This document shows, in pieces, positions 39,995 through 44,133 of a stretch of 64,000 bases of DNA (position 1 is its first letter; each line of letters starts with the position of its first letter). Made by a program: the position numbers and the translations under genes. Under the pieces are notes generated by a model. The model was given only the letters and a program-made list of their open reading frames with translations. It was not told where the DNA came from and made no database searches. Source of the DNA: Massilia sp. UMI-21 (GTDB lineage: Bacteria > Pseudomonadota > Gammaproteobacteria > Burkholderiales > Burkholderiaceae_D); the NCBI GenBank assembly GCA_015277795.1, contig CP063848.1, forward strand, positions 2,976,001-3,040,000, read 5' to 3'.

Positions 39995-41338
39995 ATGCAA
40001 AGCACGACGACGTACGGCGGCGCAAGTGCCGCGCCCATTACCCACCCCACCAGCGGGGCTCGCAACATCAATGCCCGGGACGGCGAAATCCACCCGGGCG
40101 AAATCGCCGTCGGCGTGGTCATCGGCCGCGCCTCGGAATATTTCGAATTCTTCGTCTACGCAATCGCTTCGGTACTGGTATTCCCCGCAGTCTTTTTCCC
40201 GTGGGCTGACCGGCTTGAAGCGACACTCTACTCGTTTATCATTTTTTCGTTCGCATTTATCGCGCGCCCCTTCGGCACGATGATCTTCATGTGGCTGCAG
40301 ACCCGCTTCAGCCGCGAAATGAAGCTGACCATCGCGCTGCTCCTGATGGGCACCTGCACCGTGGTGATTTCCTTCCTGCCCACCTACAGCCGCATCGGCG
40401 CCGCCTCGATCGTGATCCTTTCGCTGATGCGCATCGGCCAGGGCATCGCCCAGGGCGGCTCCTGGGACGGCCTGCCCTCGCTGCTGGCCCTGAGCGCACC
40501 GGAGCACAAGCGCGGCTGGTACGCGATGCTGGGCCAGCTTGCCGCACCGCTCGGCTTCCTGATCGCGGCCGGCCTGTTCGCCTACCTGCTGGCCAACCTG
40601 TCGCAGGACGATTTCCTGGTCTGGGGCTGGCGCTATCCATTCTTCTGCGCCTTCACGATCAACGTCGTGGCGCTGTTCGCCCGGCTGCGCCTGGTCTCGA
40701 CCAGCGAGTACTCGCGCCTGCTGGACGCGCATGAACTCGACCCGGCACCGGTCGGTGAACTGGTCAAGTCGCAAGGCAGCAACATCGCCATCGGCGCGCT
40801 GGCCGCCCTGGCCAGCTACGCCCTGTTCCACCTGGTGACGGTGTTCCCGCTGTCCTGGATCCAGCTCTACGATACCCGTCCGATGGACGAGTTCCTGCAC
40901 ATCCAGATGTGGGGCGCGGTGCTGGCGGCAGTGGCGATCCTGGTCTCGGGCCTGATCGCCGACAAGGTCGGCCGCCGCACCACGCTGGGCACCCTGGCGG
41001 TCCTGATCGGCCTGTTCTCGCTGGCCGTACCGACCCTGATGGATGGCGGCGAGGCCGGCCAGAACACCTTCATCCTGGTCGGCTTCGCCTTGCTGGGCCT
41101 GTCGTACGGCCAGGCCGCCGGCGCGGTGACCGCGAACTTCAAGCAGCAGTACCGCTACACCGGCGCCGCCCTGACCTCGGACCTCGCCTGGCTGGTCGGC
41201 GCCGCCTTCGCGCCGCTGGTCGCCCTGGGCCTGTCGGCGCACTTCGGACTGGGCTACGTCAGCCTCTACCTGCTGTCGGGTGCGGTCGGCTCGCTGGCGG
41301 CACTGAGCCTGAACCGGGCGCTCGAGATCCGCGACTAA
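39995..41338 (+). CDS. MFS transporter, MHS type
   Basis: 447 aa with twelve predicted membrane helices and an N-terminal hydrophilic tail. The MHS-type entrance (GRASEYFEFFVYAIASVLVFP), the LMRIGQGIAQGGSWDGLPSLLA segment and the domain-swap loop ADKVGRRTTLG are present. Family members import organic acids or osmolytes with protons. It reads away from the cyo operon; AGGAGA precedes the ATG. The GCGGCATTGCCGC palindrome near 39911 may be a regulator site. Confidence 0.85.
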   Translation: MQSTTTYGGASAAPITHPTSGARNINARDGEIHPGEIAVGVVIGRASEYFEFFVYAIASVLVFPAVFFPWADRLEATLYSFIIFSFAFIARPFGTMIFMWLQTRFSREMKLTIALLLMGTCTVVISFLPTYSRIGAASIVILSLMRIGQGIAQGGSWDGLPSLLALSAPEHKRGWYAMLGQLAAPLGFLIAAGLFAYLLANLSQDDFLVWGWRYPFFCAFTINVVALFARLRLVSTSEYSRLLDAHELDPAPVGELVKSQGSNIAIGALAALASYALFHLVTVFPLSWIQLYDTRPMDEFLHIQMWGAVLAAVAILVSGLIADKVGRRTTLGTLAVLIGLFSLAVPTLMDGGEAGQNTFILVGFALLGLSYGQAAGAVTANFKQQYRYTGAALTSDLAWLVGAAFAPLVALGLSAHFGLGYVSLYLLSGAVGSLAALSLNRALEIRD

Positions 41339-41377: not shown

Positions 41378-41415
41378 GAAACGCCCCGCAGCGCTGCGCG
41401 CCCGGGGCGTTTTCT
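41378..41415 (+). terminator. Rho-independent terminator after the MHS transporter
   Basis: AACGCCCCG and CGGGGCGTT form the stem around a GC-rich loop, followed by TTTTCTTT. It lies 40 bp past the transporter stop. Confidence 0.85.
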
Positions 41416-41506
41416 TTGTGGTGCTGTCAGCGCTCACTATGGATGAGGCCGGAACTGCTGAGCCCCCCCCTGGTCGAACACCTGTCTCCATCGACAGGAA
41501 GCGGCC

Positions 41507-41665
41507 ATGAAAACACCCAGCTTCAAAAATGGTTCGCACGACTCCCCGTGCTGCCTGAGCGGCACGCCTTCGGCGCGGCTGCGCCTGCGCGAAAAATGGC
41601 GCGATGGGCTGGACACACTGACGCCACCGCTTCGGTCACGTGATATGACAATCATCATATGAAGA
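41507..41665 (+). CDS. Possible small protein (52 aa) ending in the repeat array
   Basis: ATG preceded by AGGAAG at five bases, then a 52-codon frame beginning MKTPSFKNGSHDSPCC with no recognisable motif. Its TGA falls inside the first full TCATATGA unit of the array. Nothing but the ribosome site supports it; it could be chance. Confidence 0.2.
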
Positions 41666-41704
41666 TCGTCATATGATGCTCGTCATATGATCTGAATCAT
41701 ATTC
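41641..41704. repeat. Five TCATATGA-type octamers at exact 14-bp spacing (tetR 3' side)
   Basis: Octamers begin at 41641 (TGATATGA), 41655, 41669 and 41683 (each TCATATGA) and 41697 (TCATATTC), every 14 bp. The six bases between them mostly differ, so the spacing and octamer are conserved while the filler is not. This is what an operator array looks like rather than a recent tandem duplication. It lies 50 bp beyond the stop of tetR. Confidence 0.8.
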
Positions 41705-41755
41705 TTCGTATCCTATTTTCATCGAATGGACAGCCGCTGCCGCCATCCGCCGGCC

Positions 41756-42352
41756 TCACTCCGGCCGGGAAGGCACGAACAGCGACACCAGGACCTGGCG
41801 CGCGGCAGCCAGCGCCGCCCTGCCCTCGGCACGATCGCCATGAATCCGGGCCAGTTGCAGGTTACCCACCAGCGCCCCGGCGATCACCCCGGCCTGCGCC
41901 GGGTCGGCGCCTTCGGGCAAGGCCGATGCCACCCTGCGCACCAGGCGGTCGGCGCGCTGCGCCGAGGCATTGCGCACCGCTTCTTCCTGGCGCGGCATCT
42001 CGCTGGCGAGCGCGCCGACCACGCAGCCGCGCTCCGGATCGGCGAGCTGCTCATCGGACAGATACAGTTCGATCAGCGCCCGCAGGGCGCTGCCGGTGTC
42101 GCGCGTGCGCGCGGCGATGCCCTCGTCGAGTTCCGCGCTGCTGATGGCGCCGGCGTGCTCGATCGCCGCCACCAGCAGGGCGTCGCGCGAATCGAAATGG
42201 GCGTAGAAGCCGCCGTGGGTCAGGCCGGCCTCCTTCATCACCTCGGCCACGCCGACCCCGGCATAGCCATGGCGCCGCACCGCCCGGCTGGCCGCCTCGA
42301 CGATGCGATGGTGGGACTGCTCGCGCTTGCTGGACTTGGCCGATGCGGACAT
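41756..42352 (-). CDS. TetR family transcriptional repressor
   Basis: 198 aa. The helix-turn-helix is RIVEAASRAVRRHGYAGVGVAEVMKEAGLTHGGFYAHFDSRDALL, the usual TetR pattern; the remaining helices form the ligand domain (RGCVVGALASEMPRQ). It is divergent from the hydrolase gene, and both its promoter side and its 3' side contain CATAT elements spaced 14 bp. It is probably autoregulatory and represses the hydrolase and CapA genes. The ligand is unknown. Confidence 0.85.
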   Translation of the reverse strand: MSASAKSSKREQSHHRIVEAASRAVRRHGYAGVGVAEVMKEAGLTHGGFYAHFDSRDALLVAAIEHAGAISSAELDEGIAARTRDTGSALRALIELYLSDEQLADPERGCVVGALASEMPRQEEAVRNASAQRADRLVRRVASALPEGADPAQAGVIAGALVGNLQLARIHGDRAEGRAALAAARQVLVSLFVPSRPE

Positions 42353-42363
42353 GATGGACCCCT

Positions 42364-42399
42364 GAATATGATGCAGGTCATATTACGATGATCATATTT
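42364..42399. promoter_or_regulatory. tetR/hydrolase operator array (three units, 14-bp spacing)
   Basis: Units start at 42364 (GAATATGA), 42378 (TCATATTA) and 42392 (TCATATTT). The first two form a perfect inverted repeat AATATGA-N6-TCATATT (42365-42384), a shape expected for a TetR dimer site. It lies between the divergent tetR and hydrolase starts, 12 bp from the tetR start codon, and repeats the motif found past the tetR stop. Confidence 0.7.
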
Positions 42400-42481
42400 T
42401 TCTCGTCAAGCCTTATCGCCGCGTGAATCTTCCGGGCGCACGCCGGTCAAAAGCGGAGACCGAGGTCGAGGAGGAGCATTC

Positions 42482-43114
42482 ATGACGCGCAGGGAACCCG
42501 CCAGGATCGCCGCCGGGGCGGCGCTTCTCGAAGGCATGCTCGAACTGCCGGCCACACCGATCGGCGTGGTACTGTTCGCCCATGGCAGCGGCAGCAGCCG
42601 CCACAGTCCGCGCAACAAGCTGGTGGCTGCCCGGCTGCGCGAAGCCGGCATCGCCACCCTGCTGATCGACCTGCTAGGTCCCGACGAGGACCGCGATGCC
42701 GGCAAGCGCTTCGACATTCCCCTGCTGACGGCGCGCCTGGCGCTCGCGGCCGCCTGGCTGGGCACCGAGCCGCTCCCGCTCGGCCTGTTCGGCGCCAGCA
42801 CCGGCGCCGCCGCGGCGCTGCAACTGGCGGCGCGCGACGGCTCGGGCATCGCCGCGGTGGTGTCGCGCGGCGGGCGGCCCGACCTGGCCGGAGCCGACGC
42901 CCTGAAGGCCGTGATCGCGCCGACCCTCTTGACCGTGGGCGGCGCCGATGGCGCGGTCGTCGACCTGAACCGCCAGGCGCTGGCTGCACTGCGCTGCGAC
43001 AAGCGCCTGCTGGTCGTTCCCGGCGCCACCCACCTGTTCGAGGAAGCCGGCAAGCTCGAGGAAGTGGCGCAGGCCGCCTGCGACTGGTTCGTGCGCCACC
43101 TGGTCGCACCGTGA
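42482..43114 (+). CDS. Dienelactone hydrolase-like α/β hydrolase
   Basis: 210 aa, cytoplasmic. The nucleophile elbow is GLFGASTGAA (Ser 106) and the catalytic His is in PGATHLFEE; the N-terminal VVLFAHGSGSSRHSP holds the oxyanion loop. Substrate unknown. The GTG start of the next gene (CapA) overlaps its stop, so the two are co-translated. It is divergent from tetR and presumably repressed by it. Confidence 0.82.
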   Translation: MTRREPARIAAGAALLEGMLELPATPIGVVLFAHGSGSSRHSPRNKLVAARLREAGIATLLIDLLGPDEDRDAGKRFDIPLLTARLALAAAWLGTEPLPLGLFGASTGAAAALQLAARDGSGIAAVVSRGGRPDLAGADALKAVIAPTLLTVGGADGAVVDLNRQALAALRCDKRLLVVPGATHLFEEAGKLEEVAQAACDWFVRHLVAP

Positions 43115-44133
43115 CCGTGACCGCGACCGCGCGCGCAGCGCCGCTGCGCCTGCTGCTGGCCGGCGACGCCATGCTGGGGCGCGGCGTGGCGACCTGGATT
43201 CGGCGCTGCGGGCCAGCTTATCCGCTCGGTGCGCTGGGCGGCCTGCTCGAAGCGCCGGATCTCGTCATCGCCAATCTCGAATGCGCGCTCACGCGGCGCT
43301 CGCGACACTGGAGCGGGGCCCCGAAAGCCTTTTATTTCGGCGCCCCGCCCGAGGCGGCCCAGACGCTGGCCGGCGCCGGGATCCGGCTGGCCAGCCTGGC
43401 CAACAACCATGTGCTCGATTTCGGCGTGGAGGGCCTGCACGATACGCTGGCCGCGCTCGAGCGGCATGGCATCGCGCACGCCGGTGCCGGTGCCGGCGAC
43501 GGTATCGCTGCCGCGCGGCGGCCGGCGCTGGTCGACTGCAGGGGCGTGCGCATCGGCATGGCCGCCTTCTGCGATCACCAGGCGGATTTTGCCGCCGCGC
43601 CAGGCCATCCCGGCATCGCCTGGCTCGACCTGCACGATGAGCCGGCAGCGCTGGCCGCGTTCGCGCAGGCGCTCGCGGCGCTGCGCGAGGCCGGGGCCGA
43701 CTGGCCGATCCTGTCGCTGCACTGGGGGCCGAACATGGTATGGCAGCCGCGGCCGAGGTTTCGCCGCCTGGCGCGTGGCGCCGTCGACATGGGCTGGAAG
43801 ATCGTATTCGGCCACAGCGCCCATGTGTTCCAGGGCATCGAGCTCTACCGGGGCTTCCCGATCCTGTACGCCGTAGGCGACCTGGTCGACGACTACGCCG
43901 TCGATCCGGCCTTTCGCAACGACCATCAATTGCTGTTCGAGCTGGAACTGGCGGCGGGCCGGCTCGGCGCCATCTTGCTGCACCCGATCTTCATCGCGCG
44001 CTGCCGCACCCGGCCGGCCGCGCCGGATCAGGCGCGCTGGACCGCCGGCCGGATGGGCGCCCTGTGCGACCAACTGGGCACGCGAATCGACACCGCCGGC
44101 GGACCCTGGCGCATCGCGCCCGGCCAGGCCTAG
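43111..44133 (+). CDS. CapA family protein (PGA_cap metallophosphatase-like)
   Basis: 340 aa, GTG start overlapping the preceding stop. The CapA pattern is clear: LLLAGDAMLGRGV, VIANLECALT, LASLANNHVLDFG, ILSLHWGPNM and VFGHSAHVFQGIELYRGFPILYAVGDLV. These are a calcineurin-like metal fold; the founding member takes part in poly-γ-glutamate capsule export, but most homologues have unknown roles. No capB/capC gene is nearby and no signal peptide is seen. It overlaps the convergent ZIP gene by four bases. Confidence 0.82.
   Translation: MTVTATARAAPLRLLLAGDAMLGRGVATWIRRCGPAYPLGALGGLLEAPDLVIANLECALTRRSRHWSGAPKAFYFGAPPEAAQTLAGAGIRLASLANNHVLDFGVEGLHDTLAALERHGIAHAGAGAGDGIAAARRPALVDCRGVRIGMAAFCDHQADFAAAPGHPGIAWLDLHDEPAALAAFAQALAALREAGADWPILSLHWGPNMVWQPRPRFRRLARGAVDMGWKIVFGHSAHVFQGIELYRGFPILYAVGDLVDDYAVDPAFRNDHQLLFELELAAGRLGAILLHPIFIARCRTRPAAPDQARWTAGRMGALCDQLGTRIDTAGGPWRIAPGQA

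Follow-up and report, generated by a model that had tools for sequence, protein, structure and literature searches.

Why should a row of operator-like repeats lie past the 3′ end of a regulator gene, where there is no obvious promoter to control? This question is raised by a 64,000-nucleotide stretch of the Massilia sp. UMI-21 genome (the window), in which a tetR gene has regularly spaced repeats on both sides. Comparison with related genomes indicates that the repeats behind tetR are very probably repressor-binding sites, which in relatives are located before a neighbouring enzyme gene. The locus has the following features.

39995..41338, + strand: MFS transporter gene, the convergent neighbour; in the Massilia sp. 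9I locus (L001) the short-chain dehydrogenase/reductase (SDR) gene is followed by its 3′ end
41398..41410, + strand: predicted terminator downstream of the convergent MFS gene
41424..41636, + strand: decayed IS1595-type remnant, about 130 bp of the 5′ part plus an inner piece, with about 200 bp missing between them
41641..41704, no strand: predicted 3′ operator array of four exact overlapping units; its counterpart in relatives lies directly before the SDR gene
41643-41660, 41657-41674, 41671-41688, 41685-41702: units of the 3′ array, all exact, centres 14 bp apart
41756..42352, − strand: tetR, 198 amino acids, TetR_N domain over the Pfam threshold; 2fd5 is the best sequence match in the PDB (68 bits)
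42366..42397, no strand: predicted tetR promoter operators, an exact unit (42366-42383) and a one-mismatch unit (42380-42397), centres 14 bp apart
42380..42409, − strand: predicted sigma-70-type tetR promoter, TTGACG (42409-42404), 18-bp spacer, TAATAT (42385-42380)
42482..43114, + strand: alpha/beta hydrolase gene, divergent from tetR

An 18-base-pair inverted repeat is the repeat unit

The initial annotation described octamer-like words on both sides of tetR, and all eight are indeed present, at 41641, 41655, 41669, 41683 and 41697 behind the gene and at 42364, 42378 and 42392 before it, with a step of 14 bp every time within each array. These positions and their register stand, but the octamer itself does not hold up as the repeat. 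Only three words, those at 41655, 41669 and 41683, match TCATATGA exactly; the words at 41641 (TGATATGA) and 42378 (TCATATTA) carry one mismatch, and those at 41697 (TCATATTC), 42364 (GAATATGA) and 42392 (TCATATTT) carry two. Moreover, the octamer is not enriched in the window, where seven copies with at most one mismatch are found against 6.88 expected.

The true repeat unit spans 18 bp and is an inverted repeat, ATATGA-N6-TCATAT. Among the 51 distinct loci, the 37 that carry a single unit behind tetR (allowing one mismatch) yield the consensus AATATGAYGATCRTCATATT, in which the arms are near-invariant and the middle leans toward YGATCR. These single-unit loci rule out the octamer as the unit, since TCATATGA is the product of two overlapping units: neighbours share the bases ATAT, so that TCATATGA forms at each junction and the units recur every 14 bp. 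The words at the array ends look imperfect because each takes in just one arm of the palindrome at that end. The filler bases vary between units, as had been noted, and this variation rules out recent tandem duplication as the origin of the array.

Exact copies of ATATGA-N6-TCATAT number five in the entire 5,302,561-base genome, and all belong to this locus: the 3′ array holds four and the tetR promoter one. Of three further units with a single mismatch, one is at the tetR promoter and two are elsewhere, and a control pattern with the motif written backward has no match in the whole genome.

The product of tetR belongs to the TetR family on the basis of its TetR_N domain (PF00440; 43.8 bits versus a gathering cut-off of 24), and the C-terminal TetR_C_13 model scores 26.5 bits, just below its cut-off of 27. 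Its best NCBIfam match is AcuR (NF051457), with similarity detectable across residues 8-148, yet the score of 46.1 bits falls far short of the 247-bit cut-off, and the protein is not AcuR. The tetR promoter is the only promoter-like match between 41300 and 42520, and the predicted operators span much of its spacer plus the −10 element. Indeed, the deviating arm of the one-mismatch unit (TAATAT in place of TCATAT) is the −10 element itself, and the TTGAC(N)/TAATAT layout recurs upstream of tetR in many relatives.

A role of the tetR-promoter array in serving the divergent hydrolase gene was ruled out, as the same array is present in relatives that lack the hydrolase; within the flanks compared, the window, L003 and L043 are the only loci where this gene adjoins tetR. 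In the window, hydrolase and PGA_cap-type genes (42482-44133) lie between a zupT-like gene and tetR. Among the 18 other distinct loci with a zupT-like gene before tetR, the hydrolase is found in two (L003 and L043) and the PGA_cap gene in none.

Units accompany tetR across genomes

Our comparison set comprised 62 genomes of the genus and a total of 51 distinct tetR loci, 14 of them from outside the genus. A relative of tetR (E ≤ 1e-30) is present in 37 of the 62 genus genomes. The exact unit occurs in 36 of the 62, all of them tetR-bearing, with each listed match adjoining tetR when coordinates were compared by eye, and in none of the 25 genus genomes that lack tetR. With one mismatch allowed, 47 of the 51 distinct loci have a unit no more than 250 bp behind tetR, while 200 dinucleotide-preserving shuffles of the same stretches gave a mean of 0.005 loci and a maximum of 1.

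Loss of the words in close relatives that keep tetR had been named as an outcome that would count against a regulatory link; instead, the 3′ unit is retained in 36 of the 37 tetR-bearing genus genomes. The sole exception is genome G036 (locus L062), which has kept tetR and has neither an SDR gene nor a unit behind it. Thus, as is characteristic of TetR operators, an inverted repeat is conserved with the regulator and near its promoters (36/37 versus 0/25 genomes, and ahead of the SDR gene in all 43 loci that have one), and there is good support for assigning the ATATGA-N6-TCATAT units as predicted operators of the neighbouring TetR. The operator part of the original proposal is thereby borne out, whereas titration, looping and an unannotated transcript, which it had offered as functions, are without direct support.

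The unit is general among relatives, but a strict 14-bp-spaced array behind tetR is not. Only ten of the 37 tetR-bearing genomes of the genus have more than one unit there, namely the window, L001 to L008 and L043, and all ten belong to the window's closest group. Spacing behind tetR in the 37 genomes is 14 bp in 13 of 16 cases, the remainder being 44, 38 and 29 bp. At the tetR promoter, two units are present in 25 of the 37 genomes and the spacing is 14 bp in all 25 cases. In a sample of 399 genomes from across the order, two carry exact double units; both are from this genus, which had five members in the sample. A search of the genus revealed several more members with neighbouring exact units 14 bp apart.

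Seven of the 37 genomes have no tetR-promoter unit at one mismatch or fewer; two of these (L080 and L082) carry a two-mismatch unit and five carry none. Autoregulation through this motif is therefore not universal. By eye, the tetR promoters of L056, L059, L061, L063 and L062, which lack an ATATGA unit, have another palindrome-like element in common, and four of these five loci retain an exact unit before the SDR gene. Outside the genus, units flank tetR on both sides in 11 of 14 loci.

An SDR gene follows the predicted operators in relatives

The lack of an obvious promoter for the 3′ array holds for the window but not for its relatives. An SDR match on the same strand as tetR begins no more than 400 bp behind it in 43 of the 51 distinct loci, and a unit precedes all 43, with 23-88 bp between the unit edge and the start of the match. 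Because the unit stands before a co-directional SDR gene in every one of these loci, the 3′ array corresponds to the SDR operator region. The −35 box is weak before many of these operators. In L001 the gene order is zupT-like, tetR, SDR and convergent MFS, and the L001 SDR, the one of the 43 that was scanned, passes NF006117 (PRK08264.1-3) at 344.3 bits versus a cut-off of 299. Identity to this protein is 56-100% in 39 of the 43 loci and only 27-29% in the other four (L025, L080, L081 and L082).

Included among the 43 are loci from Achromobacter, Herbaspirillum, Paraburkholderia, Pelomonas, a Rhodoferax MAG and a Gemmatimonadetes MAG. The contig of the last (L025) encodes a 45% identical TetR whose gene is flanked on either side by predicted operators and followed by a gene for a distant SDR (29% identity), an arrangement that suggests wide transfer or misbinning.

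The eight loci without an SDR gene behind tetR are the window, L004, L008, L043, L062 and three remote TetR matches from outside the genus (29-37% identity), which also lack the motif.

The presence of an SDR promoter in relatives bears on DNA looping, in which dimers on the 3′ and tetR-promoter arrays would loop the 0.7-kb tetR and strengthen autorepression. Two operator regions do lie about 0.7 kb apart in most loci with this tetR. However, this distance is the length of tetR, the tetR and SDR promoters account for two regions, the tetR promoters of the five genus genomes mentioned above carry no unit even when two mismatches are allowed, and there is no sign of tetramers. We regard looping as very unlikely.

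Probable loss of the SDR gene in the window genome

No SDR of the L001 kind is present in the window genome, in which the 24 SDR-type matches show only 27-37% identity (best, 61 bits); this also rules out relocation of the gene elsewhere in the genome. A search of the window for an SDR remnant gave only a single, chance-like match of 18 bases, and no remnant is recognisable in L043, L008 or L062. Because no remnant can be recognised in the window, we infer a former SDR gene there from its relatives. In L004, a 131-base piece behind the array is 70% identical to the start of the L001 SDR (E 5e-9) and represents a broken SDR gene.

The place where relatives carry the SDR gene is occupied in the window by the IS1595-type remnant. 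The intact element is about 1.08 kb long and occurs in at least 11 further places in the genome; ten of these copies are close to full length and one has lost an inner part. The 322-amino-acid protein of a complete copy matches DDE_Tnp_IS1595 at 42.7 bits (cut-off 27), which establishes the type of the element. Matches between the remnant and these copies mostly end at 41621-41636, beside the 3′ array. The window piece has 12 private substitutions in 192 compared columns, compared with 0 to 2 in the other copies. The IS element may have taken part in the loss of the SDR gene. An ORF for 51 amino acids (41507-41662, + strand), whose start resembles an IS1595-type transposase and which ends inside the array, is part of the remnant and not a separate gene. 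Elsewhere in the same genome, two IS1595-type copies are arranged head to tail (L088:1516-3664).

When SDR presence was mapped on trees of the tetR (17 rows), zupT-like (17) and MFS (13) proteins, three, four and five changes were needed, respectively, and well-supported branches force at least two, three and two changes in trees that are otherwise poorly resolved. A single loss was rejected, as the SDR-less genomes stand apart on the trees, although loss followed by regain may also have occurred.

Taken together, these comparisons make it highly likely that the locus derives from a conserved TetR-SDR operator system and that its 3′ array was orphaned by loss of the SDR gene. TetR would be a repressor with the 18-bp inverted repeat ATATGA-N6-TCATAT as its operator, and the conserved module consists of tetR followed by SDR, with predicted operator regions over the tetR promoter and between the two genes, such that one repressor would control its own gene plus one reductase. 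By binding the units TetR would repress both promoters, and a ligand would presumably release it. In the window's closest relatives both regions appear as chains of units that overlap by ATAT with a 14-bp period. The SDR gene, which would have been on the − strand, was probably lost from the window genome. The decayed IS1595-type remnant now ends at the array edge, and the array of four units would have been left orphaned between the convergent genes. Such a loss would explain why this array has no promoter to control, and it may now be idle.

Alternatively, the array could still drive a − strand transcript, either a small RNA or the ORF at 41437-41658. This ORF begins within the array, and the counterpart of the array in relatives is a promoter region. 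However, the 3′ array contains no promoter-like match (the best −35 match there is 4/6), and the ORF has no Pfam match and runs antisense through the IS remnant. No Rfam family reaches its gathering score, which rules out a known RNA element as well as weakening the case for a small RNA. Continued transcription from the array is thus very unlikely.

Does the orphan array retain a role?

Orphan arrays of this kind may have a residual role. For example, four extra sites could act as a decoy that titrates TetR dimers, which would set how much repressor is free and thereby how sensitively the autoregulated tetR promoter responds. Control by decoy sites is an established principle, as two reports illustrate (PMC7686491, PMC7826281). 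Arrays survive in four of the five genus genomes that have tetR and no SDR gene behind it, with 4 (the window), 4, 3 and 2 units, compared with one to three units in 32 SDR-bearing genus relatives. All 36 arm positions of the window array are intact despite the decayed IS piece alongside (about 6% change), which weakly points to continued selection; by our estimate, neutral evolution would have left all of them unchanged with a probability of about 0.1. In addition, tetR is still open and shows dN/dS values of 0.10-0.26 (nine pairs with the window tetR); the gene has been constrained for most of its history, a measure that says nothing about present function.

Other observations weigh against a decoy. 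Two or three units are also found in SDR-bearing members of the closest group (L001, L002, L003, L005, L006 and L007), so that array growth may predate SDR loss. The losses may be recent, the tetR branch of L008 is long (0.27) and fits decay, and in G036 the array has gone along with the SDR gene. Moreover, the supporting cases are few and related. On balance, a decoy function is unlikely. A more elaborate version holds that, after repeated SDR loss, selection keeps the in-register chains as a chromosomal sponge, in which half-sites would be shared and the number of units would set stepwise, mutually exclusive TetR occupancy; this too we consider improbable. If it were true, the locus would offer a natural example in which control by decoy sites has outlived the target gene.

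Relation to known systems

The operator sequence was not found among the matches listed in the open-licence literature, which is no proof of its absence from print, and that literature holds no TetR-family text with both CATCATATT and AATATGA. In the excerpt of one TetR-family regulator paper that matches ATATGA and TCATAT, the matches are primers. Likewise, we found nothing in the open-licence literature on TetR/SDR in Massilia or on overlapping arrays of this kind. Our analysis supplies a specific predicted operator sequence for a TetR-SDR pair that occurs in several genera of Burkholderiales, and suggests that an apparently purposeless operator array can be the fossil of a lost target gene.

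Locally acting, autoregulated TetR proteins have operators over their own promoter and before one adjacent enzyme gene. The placement of the operators described here is the same as in such regulator-enzyme pairs, except that the enzyme gene is gone in the window. The layout of sites also resembles that of other TetR-family systems with overlapping inverted repeats, a likeness seen in sequence and limited to this layout. For FadRSa, overlapping palindromes are described and compared with those of QacR in that respect (PMC6449355), and for DarR two TetR-family dimers are reported on overlapping inverted repeats, with both sites within one 20-bp operator (PMC10636190). Unlike the DarR sites, the window units overlap end to end, with 18-bp units that share ATAT, have centres 14 bp apart and form chains of up to four, an arrangement that makes half-site sharing by TetR dimers a testable question.
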